This document shows, piece by piece, positions 3-10,033 of a stretch of 20,687 nt of DNA. A program made the translations under genes and the position numbers. How positions within the stretch are numbered: position 1 is the first letter of the stretch; each line of letters begins with the position of its first letter. The notes beneath the pieces are model-generated. The model did no database searches. It was not told where the DNA came from and saw nothing but the letters and a program-made list of their open reading frames with translations. The DNA is from Bdellovibrionales bacterium (GTDB taxonomy: Bacteria; Bdellovibrionota; Bdellovibrionia; Bdellovibrionales; UBA1609), in NCBI GenBank assembly GCA_020435085.1, contig JAGRAB010000029.1, forward strand, positions 1-20,687. Direction: 5' to 3'.

Positions 3-230
3 AAAGATTGGCCTCAACATAATGGACCAGAACAAATGGAGATGATTAAAAAATCATCCATTGAACTCTTTGCCCTTCAAAAAGATGAAAAAAAACCTGT
101 GACCACACCCTTAAGTGAAATTGTTTTCGATGCCTGTGGAAAGATTCTGCTCAATGAAGCTGCCTCACCAAGAAAACCAGTTTGGTGGATAGGTCATGAT
201 GCTGTAGCAAAGCAGACGTGCCTTTTCTAA
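3..230 (+). CDS. 3' end of an unrecognised gene (partial)
   Basis: The reading frame is open from the left edge of the window and ends at TAA 228-230, giving about 75 C-terminal residues. An internal ATG at 36 exists, but no Shine-Dalgarno precedes it and the frame continues upstream, so this is most likely the tail of a longer gene that starts outside the window. The visible residues are mixed polar and hydrophobic, with a Trp-Trp near the end (KPVWWIGHDA) and a terminal QTCLF. I recognise no domain and see no signal peptide or membrane segment in this piece. Its stop codon overlaps the stop of the convergent lipoprotein gene by a few bases, so no room is left for a separate terminator. Function unknown. 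Confidence 0.6.
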   Translation, partial: KDWPQHNGPEQMEMIKKSSIELFALQKDEKKPVTTPLSEIVFDACGKILLNEAASPRKPVWWIGHDAVAKQTCLF

Positions 231-2605
231 TTACATTGTCTTTGGAGATGACCGCTGTTTGACAGACTTCCCATAAAGTCACCAATAATTGCTGCTAAGA
301 CAGAGGTAATATGAACACGGTCAAATTGAGGATTCCAACTTTGCTTTCTTCTTCTTTTAAACTCCTGATAGAGTTGCCAATTATGAATCCAACCTTTTGA
401 TTGAGGAATTTCACCAGTTTCGACAATATGTCGAAACACATCAATAACTCTTTGATCGTCCATAGAATCCATACATAATTTCTTACCCATTTCTCGTATG
501 AAACCTGCAAATAAAGGAATCGCTGCGTTGACTTCCTCTCGTTGTAAATAATTATCTCCATTAATATTGAATCTGGTCATTATCGACTCAGAATAATGGG
601 CAACCACTCCCACCACATCGAGCTCTGCTTTTTCAACCCAGGTCTTTGAGCTATTTTTACTTACTGATGCTGCTAGAAGACTATTTCCGTAATATCCAAG
701 CGTTGCTTGTGACAATGAAGACAAATACACCCAAAGCGAAGGCATGTTCACTACATTTTTTAATAAAATTTCTCCAATGTGACTTTCAACACAACTTCTT
801 TTAACTTTAATTTCACCTCGAATATCTAAAGATCCTTGCTCACAAATTTTAAGAAAATCATTATAAATTTCTCTCGACAAAGTAGAGCCTGACTTCAAGT
901 AAGCCAAGAGTAACATGCCTTCAAAAAAGTTCATATTGGCTTTTTCCCCAAGACCATTAGAAACGTAAGTGAACAAATTGGATTCAATAAAACTCCTATG
1001 CCCAGCATTGTCTGAACGAGGGTCCATAATACCAATTTTCACACCAATAGGCTTTAAATCATCATAGACAGATTGCAGCTCTGATGACGTCATCGTAGAC
1101 TTTAAAATGTCGTCTTCATTAAAGTTTGATGCATAACCTCGAGTGGCAAGACGAACAAGTGTTCGATAAAAATTCATTTCCGTAAGATCATAATAATCAT
1201 GAGAAACATCATATTCGTAGAGTTTTTTTAATTCGACAAGAATAATTTTTTTACTTGTTTTTTTATGAAGCGGAGGAATATGACGAATAATTTTTTTAAT
1301 TTCATCAATAGATTGAGATGTACCACTTTCAACTGCAAAACTAGATGCGATATCAGAAGATTGCATTTGTGAATATAAGTTTGCCTGATCGGTAGAATGA
1401 GTGAATGATTTTGATATGTAAAGCTGTGCTTCAAACCAGCTATTATAAACTTTAAAGGCTTCATAAAGCTGTTTCTCATCAAAAAATGGATTCACTCGCT
1501 TTTTTGGAGAAAGTCTTCTGTCTCCTGTCATTTTTTCTAAAACTATTGGTAAAGCGTCTTTTATATCTTCTGTCTTCAATCCAAATGGAAACTCAATCAT
1601 CTTCTCTAAAGACTCTGCTAAACTAATTAATTTTGTGTATTCAATTTTTTTATCTGACTGACGGCTCAGTGCTGTTGCAATATTTTTAAAGACTTCAATC
1701 ACCCATTCATTAAAATGACTCACTCCTTCAACACCTAAAATATCTTTACCCTTCACAAAGTACTGGTATTTCACAAGTATCCCGAACCAAGAGCCAATTT
1801 CATTTAAAAAGTCACCGAGTTCTCTTCCTCGAATTTTTGTATCTTCAACACCAAAACTCACAACTCTGAATTTATATAAAATCTCTTTAAGTAAAGACTC
1901 AGAAATAGAATCTGAATTTATTAAATTCCAATTTGCAAATACTCTAAATTCATGAATGAGTGTTTCAAAATCATTGAGATCATATTCAATATCTTTCCCT
2001 CTGAAAGTTTCTACAACCGTCATAATTGATGATTTCAAAGCGACAAGGGCCGTATCAACAACATGTTTTGGGTATTCTCTTTTTAATTTTAAGCTCTCTG
2101 ACCACTGATAAATTTTAACATACCTATTCACTCTTAAGATTTCATCTTTCCAAACAGGAACAAGATGGATAAAGTCTTTTAATTCTTCACGTGTAATATT
2201 TGTCTCCCCCCCCCCTAAGACAACCACTTTCACGTTCATAATTTGCTTTAACAACTCATCACTGATTGTTTTATCTTTTAGAAAGTAAAGTTGTAAAAAA
2301 TGTCGAATCTCTTCTGGATGATAACCATTAGGATCTTCCCCTACTGTGTACTTTTCGAAAGATTGCATTGAATAAACAGCACATTCTGAAAATTCTTCCA
2401 ACTCTGCATCTTGTAACTCGCCATCAAGAAGTTTTTTTACGATAATTCCCATATTGGATAAACATCCCACTTTATTACCAAACTCAATATTTGTATTTTC
2501 AGCAGGATTCTCCCCCACTTTTAAACTGCATGCGGCAAACAGTATTGTGAAAACAACAAAGCTAACAAAGGAAATAGGGCGTTTCAAACGTGAACTAAAA
2601 GACAT
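227..2605 (-). CDS. large outer-membrane lipoprotein with repeated helical motif and an EF-hand-like loop (lipoprotein B)
   Basis: The 792-residue product begins with a basic n-region, a hydrophobic segment and the lipobox LFAAC, so Cys26 should be lipidated by Lgt after export. Ser at +2 predicts sorting to the outer membrane (inference from the E. coli rule). The mature part is helical and repetitive. Residues about 97-155, 211-277 and 324-393 look like diverged copies of one unit: helix, then LLK-x-I, then a Gly-rich or polar loop, then an acidic helix. The first loop is GGG at 131-133, encoded by a run of ten G. Residues 680-691 (NINGDNYLQREE) match an EF-hand loop at positions 1, 3, 5, 8 and 12, with Asn replacing the usual Gly at 6. 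The start ATG lies inside the last codons of the barrel gene (11-nt overlap), with GGGGA 7 nt upstream. It is a paralogue of lipoprotein A (4213-6504). No family recognised. Confidence 0.85.
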   Translation of the reverse strand: MSFSSRLKRPISFVSFVVFTILFAACSLKVGENPAENTNIEFGNKVGCLSNMGIIVKKLLDGELQDAELEEFSECAVYSMQSFEKYTVGEDPNGYHPEEIRHFLQLYFLKDKTISDELLKQIMNVKVVVLGGGETNITREELKDFIHLVPVWKDEILRVNRYVKIYQWSESLKLKREYPKHVVDTALVALKSSIMTVVETFRGKDIEYDLNDFETLIHEFRVFANWNLINSDSISESLLKEILYKFRVVSFGVEDTKIRGRELGDFLNEIGSWFGILVKYQYFVKGKDILGVEGVSHFNEWVIEVFKNIATALSRQSDKKIEYTKLISLAESLEKMIEFPFGLKTEDIKDALPIVLEKMTGDRRLSPKKRVNPFFDEKQLYEAFKVYNSWFEAQLYISKSFTHSTDQANLYSQMQSSDIASSFAVESGTSQSIDEIKKIIRHIPPLHKKTSKKIILVELKKLYEYDVSHDYYDLTEMNFYRTLVRLATRGYASNFNEDDILKSTMTSSELQSVYDDLKPIGVKIGIMDPRSDNAGHRSFIESNLFTYVSNGLGEKANMNFFEGMLLLAYLKSGSTLSREIYNDFLKICEQGSLDIRGEIKVKRSCVESHIGEILLKNVVNMPSLWVYLSSLSQATLGYYGNSLLAASVSKNSSKTWVEKAELDVVGVVAHYSESIMTRFNINGDNYLQREEVNAAIPLFAGFIREMGKKLCMDSMDDQRVIDVFRHIVETGEIPQSKGWIHNWQLYQEFKRRRKQSWNPQFDRVHITSVLAAIIGDFMGSLSNSGHLQRQCN
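2206..2215. repeat. C10/G10 homopolymer inside lipoprotein B
   Basis: Ten consecutive C on the plus strand read as GGG GGG GGG G on the coding strand, at codons 131-134 of the lipoprotein B gene. Loss or gain of one G would shift the frame about 100 residues after the lipid-anchor Cys. Poly-G tracts of this length are typical sites of slipped-strand mispairing in surface-protein genes of other bacteria. At the same protein position, paralogue A encodes Gly-Gly with mixed codons (GGC GGA), so the run is not required by the protein. Confidence 0.9.
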
Positions 2606-4055
2606 AAGTCATCCCCACAGCCACCCTGTCATTTGATCGATATCGTGTCATCAAACCAGATCCTGCTTTATCCGCAGACTCATTGGCACCCAAGACATCA
2701 AGGCCCAAGTCAAAGATAAAGTTTTCTCCAACAAGGTATTCTATCTTTGTTGAAAAAAGACCCGCCTCATCAGGAATCGAATAAAGATATTTAATGCCAT
2801 ATCTCAAAGAATAGTGATTTGAAATAAAAAACTGTTGCATGTACTCCGTTGAAAATACTTTATCAAACATGAAACGATCTAAAGAAGAATCTACGGTATC
2901 CCCAAGCAGCGTTGAAGGAGCAAGGTTTTTTCTTTTATCAATTTGCATATAACTATAACGGATATGTGAGTTTCTTAAACCTATCCAACGCAGTGAATGC
3001 TGAAGCATCCCACTAAAAATATTAATTTCCCTGAGTTCTGATTGAACCCAGTCTTCTGGTTGCCCAGATTCTTCTGGACGATCATTGGTAACAGAACCCC
3101 AAAAGGAAAGATCTTCCGTTTTATAACCAGCTTCCACAGTGGCCACATTATGATAAACCACGATAGGGTGCACTGTGACTTGCGTCCTATTGTCTTTAGA
3201 AATTTGGAGTTTTCCCTCAATCCCTAAATGAAGTTGATTTCTTGGTTTTCTTGAGTAAGAAAACCGACCCCATCCTCCTGAGTGGGGATGCCCTACCTCT
3301 AATGCACCTGCAAACCCATCATGCATAATAACGTCTTGTTCACTCGGACGATCTAAATCATAATAAAGATGACTTGGTTGTGATAAAATTGTTGTTTGGT
3401 TTTGTGGCGTCCAAAACCACCTGTTATTAGATGAAAATCGACCATCTTTCAGTTCAAAGTTGGGCCCTTGATCTGGAAGAAAAAAAGGTGTTCCAAATAA
3501 TTTGACTCGCATCCATTCATTACCAACATTTAAAAATGCCCCAGTAAGTCCCAGAGTTTCTGGATGAATATAATCCCAACGAGCAATTGGCTGCCAAACT
3601 CCCAGCTTCCAAAGGTCATCAAATGCGGACCACTCCTCTCTCTTTCGACCTAGATAAAACTGAATCAAAGATGTTTGATTATCATATCCTGTATAAAAAT
3701 CAGGAATATTTAAATAGGGTTTTTCAGATTCACGTTCTGCAGAAATGACTTTAATATCTGAGACGAAGACCCATTGTGAATAAGTTCTTTGATAATAATT
3801 CATTCGACCTGAAAAAGAATAAATCTGATTCGGTTGGTCCGAGTTGGGAGGTTCTGCCAAATACTCATGCTCACGCATTTTAAGTTCAATATGAAAATTT
3901 TTATCAGCAGGCACTTTGGTGAGATCTTCAATTTTTATTTTTTCTTTTGAGTTGGGTAAAGATAATGACGACGACTGCCCAAATGCAGAAAAATAAAAGA
4001 GACCCCCCACAAGTATCCCTATAAATGCAAAGCACTTATTCTTTGTTAAATTCAA
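2595..4055 (-). CDS. outer-membrane beta-barrel-like protein of pair B
   Basis: The product has 486 residues. I accept the TTG start at 4053-4055 because AAGGGA lies 8 nt upstream and it opens a clean signal peptide (MNLTKNK, a hydrophobic core, then FSAFG before QSSS). The mature protein has many alternating polar and hydrophobic stretches rich in Tyr, Trp and Arg, and it ends in TYVF, the C-terminal aromatic signature recognised by the BAM complex. It shares landmarks with barrel A: an [LF]GRK...W...D.LW block near residues 135-150, then GLTG.F, a [TS]P.F.P..GP block, and a terminal YRSNDRV. The last codons (TAT GTC TTT) contain the ATG of the lipoprotein B gene. I do not recognise a porin family. 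A role as a porin or as a partner that places the lipoprotein is inference. Confidence 0.8.
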   Translation of the reverse strand: MNLTKNKCFAFIGILVGGLFYFSAFGQSSSLSLPNSKEKIKIEDLTKVPADKNFHIELKMREHEYLAEPPNSDQPNQIYSFSGRMNYYQRTYSQWVFVSDIKVISAERESEKPYLNIPDFYTGYDNQTSLIQFYLGRKREEWSAFDDLWKLGVWQPIARWDYIHPETLGLTGAFLNVGNEWMRVKLFGTPFFLPDQGPNFELKDGRFSSNNRWFWTPQNQTTILSQPSHLYYDLDRPSEQDVIMHDGFAGALEVGHPHSGGWGRFSYSRKPRNQLHLGIEGKLQISKDNRTQVTVHPIVVYHNVATVEAGYKTEDLSFWGSVTNDRPEESGQPEDWVQSELREINIFSGMLQHSLRWIGLRNSHIRYSYMQIDKRKNLAPSTLLGDTVDSSLDRFMFDKVFSTEYMQQFFISNHYSLRYGIKYLYSIPDEAGLFSTKIEYLVGENFIFDLGLDVLGANESADKAGSGLMTRYRSNDRVAVGMTYVF

Positions 4056-4072
4056 AAAATTAATCCCTTGTT

Positions 4073-4108
4073 TTAGGTAAGATTATTGATTTCAATAAAC
4101 TTACCTAA
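4073..4108 (-). promoter_or_regulatory. 36-bp near-perfect palindrome in the presumed 5' leader of pair B
   Basis: The outer arms TTAGGTAAG (4073-4081) and CTTACCTAA (4100-4108) and inner arms TTATTGA (4083-4089) and TCAATAA (4092-4098) pair perfectly. A single A/A mismatch separates them and the loop is 2 nt. On the minus strand the element sits between the candidate promoter (4129-4158) and the Shine-Dalgarno (4065-4070), so it would be transcribed as a stem-loop ending 2 nt before the ribosome site. No U-run follows on either strand, so a simple intrinsic terminator is unlikely. It could equally be an operator for a dimeric DNA-binding protein. Confidence 0.75.
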
Positions 4109-4128
4109 GCTCATCAAATCCTTTAAGA

Positions 4129-4158
4129 ATTTTACCTTCTCTGTATGGAAAATCACAA
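4129..4158 (-). promoter_or_regulatory. candidate sigma-70-type promoter of pair B
   Basis: Reading the minus strand, TTGTGA (4158-4153) is followed by an 18-bp spacer and TAAAAT (4134-4129), matching the -35 consensus at 4 of 6 positions and the -10 at 5 of 6. Transcription would start near 4122 and include the palindrome at 4073-4108. If real, pair B does not depend only on read-through from pair A. Sequence match only. Confidence 0.45.
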
Positions 4159-4212
4159 TTCTCGAGGAGGGGGTATGAAATCATTCCATAGTGGTGACAA
4201 TTTTTGAGCAAT

Positions 4213-6504
4213 TTAATGCGAGTTGGGACTTATTTTTAGAATTTTTTCGCCCCAAATGCTGTTTTGAATACTTGATAAGGAGGCAAGAATCTGTACCAAT
4301 CTCAGTCGATCAGCTTCATATTCCCACCGAGACTCACTCAGCATCCAACCTATAAACTTTAAAGATCCACCAATAGCATCATCGAAATAATGAATTTTCC
4401 CATACTTCATTAGGTAAGTAAAAATCGCTCGGCGGACTTTTTCACTTATTGGATAGCCTTTTAAAAGAACGGCAAGATAGGGAGCATATACCTCATAGGC
4501 TTGTAAAGAATCAGGAACATTAATTGTACCCATTGGGGCCGACTGATCAAAACGTCCAAAAAAAGTCTCAATGTATTGAAGCAAAATCCACATTTCCATA
4601 ATGTCAGACCTAAGAATGGGGAGCTGGCTATATCCCTCTTTTCGCACAGTGATCTCTAAGTATTTCTCAAACTGGATCCATAAACCTTTTGAATGATCTG
4701 GCTCAAAATATTTTGCCATTTCTGGTAAATGATGGATCCAACGCAGTAACTGAGATGAACTCTCTTTTCTAAAACAACTGGCCTCAATAAGTTTTTTTCC
4801 ATCAACTTCAGAAATGGAACAGCTGGTGCTCAATTCTGAAAATATTTGCTTTTCAATACTGAGACCACTGAGGACATAAACTAAATACTCAATGCCTTCT
4901 TCAAAGGTAATCGTTTGTTTGCCATCAGATCTGGGCATAAATAAACTAGCCTCGCGTATAATTCGTTGAGCTAACTTTTCATCTCCAGGGTTAAAAATTC
5001 CAAGCGCGACCCCTAAAGGTTCTAATGCCACTTGAACTTCTTTTAACTCTTCAAGTGTTAAGTACGACAGCTGCTGACGACGCTCTGGATCTGCGGCAAA
5101 GCTCCTGAGAAGAATGCGAATAAGCTGTCGCTGCCAATTGAGCGATGTTATGCTGTGCAAATCATAAGAGGTCTTCTTTTTAAAATTCATTTGTAAAATA
5201 CCATTTTCATCAATAATTAAAGGCCAGGGGGCTTGAAAAGCCACTCGATACAATTCATCTTCTGCCGGCAAAATAGGAGATACTCCTTCTCCCCCACCCT
5301 CAATAATCCGAATGGCATATTTCTGTGATGTGATCCAGTATTTAAATTCATTTTTCAGAACTTCCAACTGAGGAAACCCCAGTCCTTCTATATTTTTATG
5401 TCGATCATCATCTTTAGGGGTAAGAACTTTTCGGATCAACATTTCTACAATTTCTTTTCCTTGTTGAGCGGACAGCCCCAAAGGTAGCCCAAAAAGTCCA
5501 TCACTGATTTCAATAAACTCATTAATAAGTTGAAAGGAAATTACATTTCCAGGGTGAACAACAAGAACATCAGAAATCATTTTTTCAATGTATTGGCCAA
5601 TTTTTTCTAGATGAAAAATATTTTTGGCATCTCCAAAACGAGAGTCCAAAATAAAATACTGTAAGCGTGCTAATGTTTGTGTGAAATAAGAAAATATATT
5701 AAAAACTCTTTCCCACTCATTTCCTTCAATTCGCTCTTGAGTTCCGCCAATAAAAATTTGCTTTCCCTTTTCAAGAAGTGGCACATATTTTTGCCAGTCC
5801 TCTGGGCTTGTTGATTTTGTTGGCTGAATAAGAAGGAAAATTTCTCTCAGTAAAATATCTAAATCAGAAAAACGATAAAACTCACCTTTGATAATAAGTA
5901 ATTTTCCTAACTGCTGAGCAACCTTATGAAAAGCGACAAGAGCGTCTTCAAATCGGTCTGTTGATATCTGTTTATTTTTTGCTCTTCCTGTTAGGCCATC
6001 ATAAAAAACTTTGACATGAGGGTTTAAAATGATCGTTAATTCTTTAAGTTCAAGAATCAAACTCTTTGCCTTTTCCATTTCTTGACGACTAAAATGCACA
6101 TCACTTCCGCCAAGAAACACCCTTTTAATTTGCATAATTTGATTCAGTAAAGGATCTGTAATAATAATTTTCCCTAAGAAAAATTTTGAAAGAAATGCTC
6201 GAACTTCACGGGCTGTATATACTTCTGAGCTGGATCCTTTTGTGTAGTCTGTAAAGGTTATTAATGCTTCTCGAAGACAATCCCAAAAAGCTTCAAGGTT
6301 TTTTTGAGGCAACTCCCCTCGAATATATAAATCAATAGTCTTATTAATATCACTGAGGCATTGTTGCTTTTCAGGACCACCTAATTTTAAATTTGGAGGT
6401 TCTGTATAGGGCTGATCTTCTCCTGCACATTGAATTAAAAATGGGATGAAAGCAACGATGAGTAAACCTAACAAAAGTGAAGAGCCCTTGCTTTTAAAAA
6501 ACAT
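4213..6504 (-). CDS. large outer-membrane lipoprotein of pair A (lipoprotein A)
   Basis: The 763-residue product has a lipoprotein signal peptide (MFFKSKGSS, hydrophobic core, lipobox LIQC). The modified Cys is residue 26, the same position as in lipoprotein B, and Ala at +2 suggests the outer membrane. It aligns with lipoprotein B along most of its length, for example a CLSDI/CLSNM block after the N-terminus, the repeated LLNQIM...FLGG motif and a second copy at IFIGG. The C-terminal region corresponding to the EF-hand-like loop of B (here around EGYSQLPILRSD) has lost the calcium-ligand pattern. The start ATG overlaps the end of the barrel A gene by 11 nt, with AGGAG 7 nt upstream. No domain recognised. 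Partnership with barrel A is inferred from overlap and co-duplication. Confidence 0.85.
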   Translation of the reverse strand: MFFKSKGSSLLLGLLIVAFIPFLIQCAGEDQPYTEPPNLKLGGPEKQQCLSDINKTIDLYIRGELPQKNLEAFWDCLREALITFTDYTKGSSSEVYTAREVRAFLSKFFLGKIIITDPLLNQIMQIKRVFLGGSDVHFSRQEMEKAKSLILELKELTIILNPHVKVFYDGLTGRAKNKQISTDRFEDALVAFHKVAQQLGKLLIIKGEFYRFSDLDILLREIFLLIQPTKSTSPEDWQKYVPLLEKGKQIFIGGTQERIEGNEWERVFNIFSYFTQTLARLQYFILDSRFGDAKNIFHLEKIGQYIEKMISDVLVVHPGNVISFQLINEFIEISDGLFGLPLGLSAQQGKEIVEMLIRKVLTPKDDDRHKNIEGLGFPQLEVLKNEFKYWITSQKYAIRIIEGGGEGVSPILPAEDELYRVAFQAPWPLIIDENGILQMNFKKKTSYDLHSITSLNWQRQLIRILLRSFAADPERRQQLSYLTLEELKEVQVALEPLGVALGIFNPGDEKLAQRIIREASLFMPRSDGKQTITFEEGIEYLVYVLSGLSIEKQIFSELSTSCSISEVDGKKLIEASCFRKESSSQLLRWIHHLPEMAKYFEPDHSKGLWIQFEKYLEITVRKEGYSQLPILRSDIMEMWILLQYIETFFGRFDQSAPMGTINVPDSLQAYEVYAPYLAVLLKGYPISEKVRRAIFTYLMKYGKIHYFDDAIGGSLKFIGWMLSESRWEYEADRLRLVQILASLSSIQNSIWGEKILKISPNSH

Positions 6505-7975
6505 AATTGGCTCCTAAACTCACTCGGTCATTCGATCGATAAAGACTTGTAAAACCATTATCAATAGAATTTTCATTACTCATACGACCAATCAGATCCA
6601 CAGAAAAAAAACATTGCCAAAACTGCGAAAGAAAATAAGTGCCTTGTAAAGAGAAGATACCTCCATTTTGAGAAATATCATAAAGAACCGATGACGAAAC
6701 TAAAAGAGGACGGGAGAAGACTCCTGAAAACTGGCGACGAACCCCTAATTGAAAGGCGTTTTGAAACTGAAAACGTCTTTCAAAAAGTGACTCATCCGGT
6801 GCAAACTCACCATAGTCCTTACCATCCCCCCCCAATAAGCGAGAATAACTCAACCACAATTTTGTGCCATGAAAACCCGAAAGGTTTTCTGATGTTTCCA
6901 CAGTCCCTGTAAAAATATGAGTTTCATTCATTGTTTGAGTGATGTGTTTATAATTATATTCTTCTGTCGCCGGCTTTTCATAGTTCCACTCTAACCATGA
7001 ATGAACAATGCTTGAATTTTTACCCATCGCTAAAGATGCCACATGCTGATATTCCACCCGTGGCACAATATCAGCGTCAATGCTAACATCTGAAGTCACA
7101 TCCGTTAAATTTAAAACAAATGGAACCTCTAAAAGAAATTGATTCATAGGTTTATATGCATAGGAACTCGCAAAAAACCAATCCTGCCATTGTCTTTGTA
7201 AGTGAAATCCTACAGAAGGATGAAGAATCACATCTTCTATATCAGGAGTGACAATGCGGTAATTCATCTCTACCTTACTTTTATTGAGTAAAATTTCATC
7301 AGAAGGTGGCCGAAACCAGGGGTTTTTAGAGGTGAGTTTATTGTTTTCTACCGTTGCTTGAGGCCCAAACTCAGGAATAAATAAAGGAGAAGTAAAAATC
7401 ATGAATTCATTATTATTTTGACGAAAGACCCAAAACAGCCCTGTTAACCCAGCTGGCTTTGCCTCAAGGGGATCATCCATAAATCTTGATTCAAACAAGC
7501 CACGATGCCAAAGTCGATCGGCCTGGGACCATGGCTGAAGTTTTCTTCCAAAGTATAAGTGGGAGGAGCCCACATCAAATTTATAATAAGCTTCAGAAGG
7601 TCTAAAATAGTTAACACCCTCTCCCCCTTGAAATTTTGTTTCAATATCAAATCCACCACCACGAGTCCCTGGTTCTGAACGAAGCCCTAATGTATATTCT
7701 GTCTGCTGGTCTTCAGCCCCTTCACGATAAAACTGTGCTTGTGAACTTTGATAATATCGCCCGGTAAAGCCCAAAGCCCCTTTCACCATGGGGTTATTAT
7801 TTCCTAACACGGTTTTTTGTTTGAGAGAGCTCTGACCTTGAAGGTCATTTAAAGGAAGATTTTTTATTTGTAGAGTTTCTTCTGCAAATAAAAATGGGGC
7901 CTTAAAAGATAAAAAGCCTAATACGAAAAAGATGCCCCACAATCCCTGTGGGACCTGTCTCAACCTTAAGTTCAT
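6494..7975 (-). CDS. outer-membrane beta-barrel-like protein of pair A
   Basis: The 493-residue product begins with a Sec signal peptide (basic start MNLRLR, hydrophobic core, likely cleavage after FLFA before EE). The mature part has the alternating, aromatic-rich pattern of a transmembrane beta-barrel and ends NYVF, a BAM-type C-terminal signal. Shared blocks with barrel B include YFGRK...W..AD.LW, GLTGLF, a SPLFIPEFGP block and terminal YRSNDRVSLG. The start is ATG 7975-7973, with AGAGGGGG just upstream at 7978-7985. It is the first gene of pair A and precedes lipoprotein A with an 11-nt overlap. Codons 381-384 contain a G8 run. Family unrecognised. A porin-like or lipoprotein-partner role is inference. 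Confidence 0.8.
   Translation of the reverse strand: MNLRLRQVPQGLWGIFFVLGFLSFKAPFLFAEETLQIKNLPLNDLQGQSSLKQKTVLGNNNPMVKGALGFTGRYYQSSQAQFYREGAEDQQTEYTLGLRSEPGTRGGGFDIETKFQGGEGVNYFRPSEAYYKFDVGSSHLYFGRKLQPWSQADRLWHRGLFESRFMDDPLEAKPAGLTGLFWVFRQNNNEFMIFTSPLFIPEFGPQATVENNKLTSKNPWFRPPSDEILLNKSKVEMNYRIVTPDIEDVILHPSVGFHLQRQWQDWFFASSYAYKPMNQFLLEVPFVLNLTDVTSDVSIDADIVPRVEYQHVASLAMGKNSSIVHSWLEWNYEKPATEEYNYKHITQTMNETHIFTGTVETSENLSGFHGTKLWLSYSRLLGGDGKDYGEFAPDESLFERRFQFQNAFQLGVRRQFSGVFSRPLLVSSSVLYDISQNGGIFSLQGTYFLSQFWQCFFSVDLIGRMSNENSIDNGFTSLYRSNDRVSLGANYVF
6826..6833. repeat. C8/G8 homopolymer inside barrel A
   Basis: Eight C on the plus strand read as TTG GGG GGG GAT on the coding strand (Leu381-Gly-Gly-Asp384). 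A one-base slip would frameshift the last quarter of the barrel, remove the terminal aromatic signal and move the stop relative to the overlapping lipoprotein start. It is shorter, so probably less mutable, than the G10 run at 2206-2215. Confidence 0.85.
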
Positions 7976-8101: not shown

Positions 8102-8860
8102 CTATTCTTTAAGCCAAAGATGGAGTTCATTAAGGACCCACTCAGGGTCATCAATAGTTAAATCATGACCGCCCCAAGGGTGCTTTCTAATGGGAGCTTG
8201 GGTCATTTGAGCTAAATCCATCGTGCAACGAGGTTCAACGAAGCGATCTCCTAAACTCACCAAAAAAAGTACTTTTTCTTTTAGCGACATCTCTGGATGC
8301 GAAAACCGAGAGGCTGCAACCAATTGAATAAGTGCTGTTCTTAAAGGGATCGTTTGTTCATTCGCCAATTTTACCCATAAAGGTAAAAAGGCTTTGCGAC
8401 GCTCTGGAGAGTTGGAAATAATATTGAGAACTCCTTCTTCTCTTTTTTTGTGGTCTGTTTGACTGATTTGCGCAATAAAATCTTTCCAGATTTCCCAACG
8501 GAGACGCTGATAAAATGGAGACTTCCGACTGCTAGTATTTATAATCACTGCTTTCTGAATTTCATTTGGATATGAGGATATCCAATCAAGAGCGACCATT
8601 CCACCTAAAGAAGTAGCAAATACGTGAAATTCATTTTTATCCGATTTTTGCATAGCTCTTTTTCTGACTTTTTTCATCATTCCATGAATAGACTTAGGAG
8701 AGATTTCATTTTTATTTTCTCCTACACCTGGCAGATCAATCGTGAAGACTTGATCCTGGGAAAACGTTTTTTGAAATTGCTCGATAAATGTACCCCAATG
8801 TCTTGCTTCTCTTGCAAGTCCTCTTAAGAAAATCCAATTTCTTTTTTTTTGTTCACTCAT
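8102..8860 (-). CDS. alpha/beta-hydrolase fold protein
   Basis: The 252-residue protein has the usual length and order of a small alpha/beta hydrolase, with no signal peptide, so it is probably cytoplasmic. The nucleophile elbow is FATSLGGMVA with Ser84. The acid is probably Asp205 in SLGDRFVEP and the base His232 in GGHDL. The oxyanion strand is LRGLAREARHW at 12-22, where the usual His-Gly is Arg-Gly. The elbow has Ala82 instead of the first Gly of G-x-S-x-G. It resembles the BioH/esterase group in layout, but the substrate cannot be told from sequence. The start codon overlaps the end of the upstream carboxypeptidase gene by 8 nt, so the two are probably translated together. Confidence 0.85.
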   Translation of the reverse strand: MSEQKKRNWIFLRGLAREARHWGTFIEQFQKTFSQDQVFTIDLPGVGENKNEISPKSIHGMMKKVRKRAMQKSDKNEFHVFATSLGGMVALDWISSYPNEIQKAVIINTSSRKSPFYQRLRWEIWKDFIAQISQTDHKKREEGVLNIISNSPERRKAFLPLWVKLANEQTIPLRTALIQLVAASRFSHPEMSLKEKVLFLVSLGDRFVEPRCTMDLAQMTQAPIRKHPWGGHDLTIDDPEWVLNELHLWLKE

Positions 8861-9884
8861 ACCAAGCCTCTAATGCTTTCTTTCGATGATCTTCTTTGAC
8901 GCTATTTTGTAGATTTCTCCAGGAATCCGGCGATAAACAACTTCGATGAACAAAATCAAATAAGGGCATATGACGCCTTAGTGTTCGTGAACGACGATGG
9001 GGTTTGATGGGATGATAAATGCCCCATGGATTAAAAATTTGAAAAGGATTTTTTCGTAGCCAATTCCAAGAGCCCATTTCAAGTGTCCAAGGAAGAAAAA
9101 AGTTTTTATTGGGATTTTGTTCGTTCTTTAAATAAAGATAATCCCAGAGGTCTCCTTGAATTGTATACTGCCTGGAAACAGGCTCAATTTCATAGACATG
9201 ATGAGGATATGTTTGATTTAAAAGCTGTGTAAACGCGTAAACCTCGGCAAGATCAGGAAATGGCTTTTTTGAATGGGCATAAGGAAACCAAAATCGATCC
9301 CTGGCCCCAAAGCCTGAGTGAACATCAATGGCCATAGATAACTTTGAGGGAAATAAATATGTCTCTACAACATGGCATAAAGCTTTCGCTTCAATTTCCA
9401 TCCCCTCTTGATAATCGCCTCGATACCAAGGCAGTTTTGATGAGTAATTTTGTCCACTCACTAATGGATATTGGGATTCTTCGCAGTTAATGGGGGAGTT
9501 TCTCATAAGATCCACTCCATTTCCATTGGACCGACTTCTTCGCGCAATGCCAATAGGGTTCACAATAGGCATAAATACCAAAGTCGACTCTTGAAGTCGT
9601 TGCTGAAAAGACTTATCCCACTTCACGAGCTCAAGAATGGTTCGCATATAAGAGAGGATAACATCTGATCCAATGCGCTCTAATCCATGAACACCTCCGA
9701 AAAAACCAACTGTTGGAGATTTTGGAGTTCTATTGCCTAAAATGACAGTATAAATAGGAAACTCAATATTTTTATAATTCACAGTTTCAATAACTTCCGT
9801 ATGCGCATGACTCCCAAAAGCCGCAATCAACTCTTCTAATTCTTTCATTTCACGGAAATTTCGATCGACGAATGTCTGACGCAT
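8853..9884 (-). CDS. M14-family zinc carboxypeptidase
   Basis: The 343-residue product has the zinc-carboxypeptidase signature: His66 and Glu69 (GGVHGLER) as the first two zinc ligands, His189 (DVHSGFG) as the third, the substrate-binding stretch SNGNGVDLMRN at 119-129, and catalytic Glu269 in TLEMGSW. Members remove C-terminal residues from peptides or cleave murein peptides (MpaA-like). Which applies here is unclear. No signal peptide is seen from this start, suggesting a cytoplasmic enzyme. The frame is open further upstream to 10031, but I chose ATG 9884 because GGAGGA lies about 10 nt ahead and the extension crosses the divergent promoter region and overlaps acs. It overlaps the hydrolase gene by 8 nt and diverges from acs. 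Confidence 0.85.
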   Translation of the reverse strand: MRQTFVDRNFREMKELEELIAAFGSHAHTEVIETVNYKNIEFPIYTVILGNRTPKSPTVGFFGGVHGLERIGSDVILSYMRTILELVKWDKSFQQRLQESTLVFMPIVNPIGIARRSRSNGNGVDLMRNSPINCEESQYPLVSGQNYSSKLPWYRGDYQEGMEIEAKALCHVVETYLFPSKLSMAIDVHSGFGARDRFWFPYAHSKKPFPDLAEVYAFTQLLNQTYPHHVYEIEPVSRQYTIQGDLWDYLYLKNEQNPNKNFFLPWTLEMGSWNWLRKNPFQIFNPWGIYHPIKPHRRSRTLRRHMPLFDFVHRSCLSPDSWRNLQNSVKEDHRKKALEAWYE

Positions 9885-9916
9885 AGAGGTCAGTTCCTCC
9901 CTACAACTAAAATGGA

Positions 9917-9945
9917 ATTGTATCCTGTTTTGCAATAGGAACCAA
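9917..9945 (-). promoter_or_regulatory. candidate sigma-70-type promoter of the carboxypeptidase-hydrolase operon
   Basis: On the minus strand TTGGTT (9945-9940) is followed after 17 bp by TACAAT (9922-9917), a 5-of-6 match to the -10 consensus. Transcription would start near 9910, upstream of the ATG at 9884. One TTGCAATAG box (9930-9938) lies in the spacer, which suits a repressor or activator site. Confidence 0.5.
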
Positions 9946-9976
9946 TGAAAGAAACAAAGGTAATTTTCTATTGCAA
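9930..9976. promoter_or_regulatory. inverted TTGCAATAG boxes between the carboxypeptidase gene and acs
   Basis: TTGCAATAG (9930-9938) and its exact reverse complement CTATTGCAA (9968-9976) are 29 bp apart in the 149-bp divergent region. The left box overlaps the candidate carboxypeptidase promoter and the right box lies about 60 bp before acs. A TTGCAA core is also found in boxes of RamB/ScfR-type regulators of acetate and short-chain acyl metabolism. That link is an inference from a short core only. Confidence 0.5.
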
Positions 9977-10033
9977 GGTGGCAATAACTGTTCGATGCTG
10001 ACGAAGGGTGCATGAGAAACGTTGGAGGCAAAA

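Follow-up and report, generated by a model that had tools for sequence, protein, structure and literature searches.

Two barrel and lipoprotein gene pairs in tandem

The 20,687-nucleotide contig JAGRAB010000029.1 of a Bdellovibrionales bacterium (assembly GCA_020435085.1; source bin 62% complete, 421 contigs), here called the window, carries on its minus strand a gene for a predicted outer-membrane barrel (B), followed by one for a lipoprotein (L), and then the same two kinds of gene again. The order is B1 > L1 > B2 > L2, after genes for an M14 carboxypeptidase and an alpha/beta hydrolase (ABH; Table 1). BLASTP aligned B1 with B2 at 26% identity over 388 columns (E 5e-33) and L1 with L2 at 23% identity over 699 columns (E 2e-40), values that rule out chance similarity between the pairs; it found no relationship between B1 and L1 (E 0.64). 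The first-pass annotation of this DNA had noted four reading frames duplicated in the same pair order, a lipid cysteine at residue 26 of both lipoproteins and several common sequence blocks. All of these are present, the blocks being Y[FL]GRK, GLTG and YRSNDRV in the barrels and LL[NK]QIM and GG in the lipoproteins. To these we add an 11-base overlap within each pair, the M14 peptidase and hydrolase genes upstream, and the resemblance of L to EF-hand proteins.

Table 1 Features of the window considered here
Feature	Position	Strand	Evidence
B1, outer-membrane barrel (predicted), pair 1, 493 amino acids	6494..7975	-	open reading frame; paralogue of B2
L1, lipoprotein, pair 1, 763 amino acids, Cys26 after signal peptide; without EF-hand loop pattern	4213..6504	-	
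B2, outer-membrane barrel (predicted), pair 2, 486 amino acids, TTG start	2595..4055	-	
L2, EF-hand-repeat lipoprotein, pair 2, 792 amino acids, Cys26	227..2605	-	
EF-hand loop of L2, residues 680-691, NINGDNYLQREE	533..568	-	loop pattern
11-base overlap, ATG of L1 within the end of B1 (YVF-stop)	6494..6504	-	
11-base overlap, ATG of L2 within the end of B2 (YVF-stop)	2595..2605	-	
ABH, 252 amino acids, upstream gene of type-1 locus	8102..8860	-	Pfam Abhydrolase_1 1.4e-10; same position in relatives
M14 zinc carboxypeptidase-like protein, first gene of type-1 locus	8853..10031	-	Pfam Peptidase_M14 1.4e-14; same position in relatives

Between the two pairs, some 20-50 bases before B2 begins, the minus strand can form a hairpin of two stacked stems (window 4073-4108); a z of -2.9 was computed for the 166-base region.

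Barrel family and predicted fold

None of the four window proteins matched Pfam, NCBIfam or PHROGs at cut-off, and the best match of B1 among PDB sequences reached only E 0.2, which bears out the earlier view that the barrels are of an unrecognised family. The OprD profile gave no match in 21 barrel members at E 1. A Pfam BBP2 match in one of 21 barrel relatives (E 0.1), the only trace of a known family, was set aside as likely chance. The structural model is OprD/AlgE-like in fold only, with about 20 predicted strands and in any case more than 16; these start at residue 52 and include an odd number of long strands, and no domain is seen outside them. Judging from this model, B is most likely an OprD/AlgE-like barrel placed in the outer membrane. 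Membership of a common porin family, which the first-pass annotation would have counted against a novel system, is not seen at the level of sequence, whereas the fold is that of an ordinary OprD/AlgE-like barrel.

L has EF-hand character

The body of L comprises about ten EF-hand-like modules (about five EF-hand lobes), and in most cases a single calcium-type loop is present towards the C-terminal end. A relaxed EF-hand loop pattern occurred in 82 of 90 complete L proteins, against a mean of 17.4 and a maximum of 28 in 100 runs of shuffled sequences; a strict PROSITE-type pattern occurred in only 16 of the 90. Helix-loop-helix pairs are present in the modelled fold, and of its 11 modelled loops 9 carry an acid at position 12. 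Pfam EF-hand models matched up to 8 of 19 L members, and the PDB sequence matches of the family were secretagogin and PDCD6. By its helix-loop-helix pairs and its 12-residue loop L is an EF-hand protein, which may bind calcium.

L1 of the window does not match the relaxed pattern and had no match among PDB sequences at E 10. Weak similarities of L1 to Fur_reg_FbpA and SCD, below the Pfam cut-off, and of one of 19 L members to NCBIfam PspA (E 0.009) were set aside as likely chance. Besides the lipid cysteine, which is followed by a proline-rich stretch, L has four invariant cysteines.

Barrel and lipoprotein genes occur side by side

Profiles made from the window's two L and two B proteins, searched against 196 related genomes, detected L in 146 and B in 150, and a 19-member L profile detected L in 151. 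Both genes were found in 149 genomes and neither in 44; L alone was found in two (G133, G134) and B alone in one (G183). The barrel of G133 is cut by the contig start and an L adjoins the barrel of G183, which leaves G134 (72% complete) as the sole genome with L only. The window's family has the pair in 46 of 47 sampled genomes, and three genomes that are 91-98% complete (G027, G061, G068) lack both genes inside families otherwise endowed with the pair. Several other families of the phylum, each represented by few genomes, gave no sign of the pair, and a B2 query against 72,556 plasmid records matched none of them at E 0.001. A contig scan with Bdellovibrionaceae-type motifs yielded 18 named loci, from Bdellovibrio bacteriovorus strain kdesi and from 17 metagenome bins labelled Bdellovibrio, Bdellovibrionaceae, Bdellovibrionales, Oligoflexia and, once, Proteobacteria.

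Adjacency was assessed in the window and in 110 regions or loci from whole genomes, 40 of them chosen from L and B profile matches (many with both genes visible), 40 picked from barrel matches alone and 30 from the barrel search. Deduplication left 133 barrel genes from 102 genomes, and two loci (L075, L154) were dropped, as their barrel ends are cut by the end of the contig or stretch and the sole visible L is that of the preceding pair. An L gene adjoins 120 of the 131 informative barrels, lying directly downstream on the same strand in 112, upstream in one (family f6) and head-to-head in seven (all in family f18), so that B and L stay linked even where their order or strand has changed. The 11 barrels with no adjacent L are those of family f10 (9 of 9), one in G188 and one in G015. 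Counted by family, adjacency extends to all barrels in 8 of 11 families, to 53 of 54 in f1, to 3 of 4 in f17 and to 0 of 9 in f10. A search of other genomes for the same two-gene order, as proposed at first pass, thus returned recurrent pairs, and the lipoproteins are not mostly encoded elsewhere.

The commonest arrangement is B-L alone within the stretch read (57 loci), beside M14-ABH-B-L (11 loci), M14-ABH-B-L-B-L (8 loci, window included), M14-ABH-B (8 loci, in f10) and rarer ones. The pair is doubled in many genomes; in G071 the two copies lie at about 2.320-2.325 and 2.266-2.269 Mb. At L097 1920-5992 in G188, the barrel is more divergent (profile E 1e-46) and its gene runs into the beginning of a downstream lipoprotein-like reading frame of 861 amino acids that the L profile does not match, perhaps a third, distant pair type. 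A MutM-like gene, judged by eye from its [ML]PELPEVET start, lies near the head-to-head pairs of f18 (L195 13429-14241, L196 13260-14087).

The partner's start codon lies in the barrel gene

Each L gene of the window has its ATG within the last 11 bases of the preceding barrel gene, which encode Y-V-F-stop. Across the 112 pairs with L downstream, an ATG stands at -11 in 102, and 100 of these are in the reading frame of L. TAT encodes the terminal tyrosine of the barrel in 104 of 105 genes, compared with 1384 of 2222 (62%) for their other tyrosine codons, and 22 barrel genes that otherwise prefer TAC all use TAT at this site (22/22). Of the 19 barrels that no L follows, one has the ATG, and the terminal tyrosine was TAT in 4 of 10. 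A GGAG, GAGG or AGGA stands just upstream of the L start in 56 of the 112 pairs, versus 12.2 at random positions. Fisher tests return p values that are too small, owing to the relatedness of the sequences. The simplest reading is that selection preserves the start site of L within the terminal strand of the barrel, with the codon bias at the barrel end as the means. From the overlapping ATG and the TAT bias, we infer that translation of B and L is coupled.

Both genes were duplicated together

Trees of B and L were compared for 62 pairs, with six contig-scan loci left out (four repeat genomes already included; L108 and L109 are Bdellovibrio). The two trees have 31 of 59 splits in common, a number reached in none of 2000 random swaps of L labels within the 14 tandem loci (mean 19.0, maximum 30). 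First and second tandem copies separate in 28 of 28 cases in the B tree and in 27 of 28 in the L tree, the exception being L084, where the two L group together and a swap makes no difference. Since tandem copies stand apart in both trees, both genes were duplicated together, as the first-pass annotation had claimed. Over 18 loci, B and L distances correlate at r = 0.939 (rows not independent), and their partial correlation given M14 and ABH is 0.739, the highest of the six pairs of genes; that of M14 and ABH given B and L is 0.597, and the other pairs reach at most 0.375.

A duplication private to the window's family is ruled out on the L tree. There, the Bdellovibrionaceae pair that is linked to M14 and hydrolase genes groups with pair 1 of f1, and the second Bdellovibrionaceae pair with pair 2 of f1. 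In the B tree, support on this point is 0.02-0.24 and pair 1 of f1 moves once f10 is added; we therefore take the orthology of the pairs from the L tree and gene order. Elsewhere in the window's own bin (G000:C380, L197 4565-7872), a second M14-hydrolase pair is followed by a truncated third L-family lipoprotein, with no barrel between. This third L (profile E 3.3e-19) had no match in the two congeners searched, and may be a paralogue or belong to a foreign contig. Another MutM-like gene, likewise recognised by eye, lies near this L-only locus (L197 3708-4532).

Interpretation and alternatives

Together, these results offer concrete reasons to treat B and L as one device, with calcium as a possible regulator. 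We consider it probable that the two form one outer-membrane complex, and see about an even chance that they are two subunits of one device, present twice in the genome, with L as lid, plug or regulator; that L in this role may respond to calcium is a somewhat more tentative proposal. B would be placed in the outer membrane as an OprD/AlgE-like barrel of about 20 strands, and L would be anchored beside it, its body a chain of about five EF-hand lobes. Because L is started from within the final codons of the barrel gene, the two would be made together, and L would then sit against the barrel as lid, plug or regulator. Calcium or substrate might change the shape of L and so open or stabilise the channel, which would take up small substrates, export being less likely. 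Since type-1 pairs adjoin M14 and hydrolase genes, the substrate might be a peptide, amide or ester that is both taken up and broken down, although this is a guess only. In its most specific form the proposal is a calcium-switched conduit, in which a poly-EF-hand lipoprotein serves one barrel specifically as its lid or gate, the ratio of the two being fixed by an L start, often with a ribosome site, in the barrel's terminal membrane-insertion strand; we regard this full version as rather unlikely.

The main evidence against strict one-to-one pairing comes from family f10. A single confident barrel was found in each of its 11 genomes (11 of 11). The eight f10 L loci that were read, which come from 6 genomes, all lack a barrel in the 9-15 kb retrieved, and their L genes are divided between the two sides of the L tree. 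Reciprocal loss, with the type-1 barrel and the type-2 lipoprotein kept, is ruled out since f10 has L of both types. A gene beside the stand-alone L in L204, L206, L207 and L209 starts, as judged by eye, like a glycosyltransferase-9 (heptosyltransferase-type); by the same kind of judgement, a similar gene adjoins the second pair of G071 (L194 11532-12578).

The uncoupling of B and L in f10 would suit an operon shared for expression only, in which B would be a specific porin of the ordinary kind and L an envelope protein unconnected with it. So would the common porin-type fold of B and the presence of M14 and hydrolase genes as conserved neighbours that have no obvious contact to B. We nevertheless find this explanation unlikely, given a linkage that persists through changes of gene order and strand in f6 and f18, co-duplication with little sign of partner exchange, and the joint absence of both genes from G027, G061 and G068. 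The barrel might instead be an export or assembly machine for its own lipoprotein, in the manner of Slam or LptD-LptE, with B surfacing L or L helping B to fold. Co-duplication and the overlapping start codon suit a carrier with a single client, and in L the lipid cysteine is followed by invariant cysteines and a proline-rich stretch. Such a machine seems improbable to us, however, as Pfam finds no Slam, LptD or TPR domain, the model shows no domain outside the barrel strands, and L exists away from the barrel in f10. We consider it very improbable that the pair belongs to a prey-contact or invasion surface, serving adhesion or attachment to the prey envelope with a calcium-dependent grip. Its presence in B. 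bacteriovorus and other Bdellovibrionaceae, its apparent absence from several other families (few genomes each) and the EF-hand loop of L would fit, but the operons described in the accessible part of PMC12034629 differ from it in size and order, and the gene table of PMC6561027, as far as available, gives tags that could not be mapped to the pair.

A joint device of B and L would be a two-part outer-membrane system that is near-universal among the sampled genomes of some families of the Bdellovibrio phylum and lies outside the family libraries searched; taken as a whole, the earlier two-part interpretation is partly supported. If the calcium-switched conduit were true, this phylum, Bdellovibrio bacteriovorus included, would have a class of outer-membrane transporter that is gated in this way. 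In the open-access literature we found no paper recognisable as describing the pair, which is no proof that none exists, and the Bd2400 primers published in the accessible part of PMC11271337 have no occurrence in the loci examined.

Relation to known systems

OprD/Occ porins, AlgE and Campylobacter MOMP resemble B at about 10% identity and with no common Pfam family, and B differs from them in its apparently dedicated lipoprotein. PopA (Bd0427) of B. bacteriovorus, a pentamer of 16-stranded barrels with a helical plug, is like B a porin-like outer-membrane protein of the Bdellovibrio kind (PMC12228718). The B model has more than 16 strands, and no lipoprotein partner is described for PopA in the accessible part of that paper (PMC12228718). 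Barrel members had no match among PDB sequences.

Partnership of a barrel with a lipoprotein has several precedents. LptD-LptE, and Slam with its client lipoproteins, are dedicated barrel-lipoprotein partnerships, and the first-pass annotation was right to see no homology to either: LptD/OstA and LptE gave no Pfam or NCBIfam match in the window proteins or the B and L members, and neither the Slam barrel nor its N-terminal TPR gave a Pfam match in the window proteins or 21 B. L is also far larger than LptE. In SusC-SusD-type lidded importers, too, a barrel and a lipoprotein work as a pair. Pfam found neither a TonB-dependent receptor plug nor a SusD domain in the window proteins, 21 B and 19 L. 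The likeness is that a barrel and an all-helical lipoprotein are encoded side by side; the difference is that L is EF-hand based rather than TPR based. The EF-hand module type is best known from eukaryotic calcium sensors. With EF-hand proteins such as calpain penta-EF-hand, sorcin, URE3-BP and secretagogin, L shares repeated strand-helix loops, the acid at position 12 and, in most cases, one calcium-type loop; unlike them, it is a bacterial lipoprotein of about ten motifs, with most loops degenerate and four invariant cysteines besides that of the lipid.
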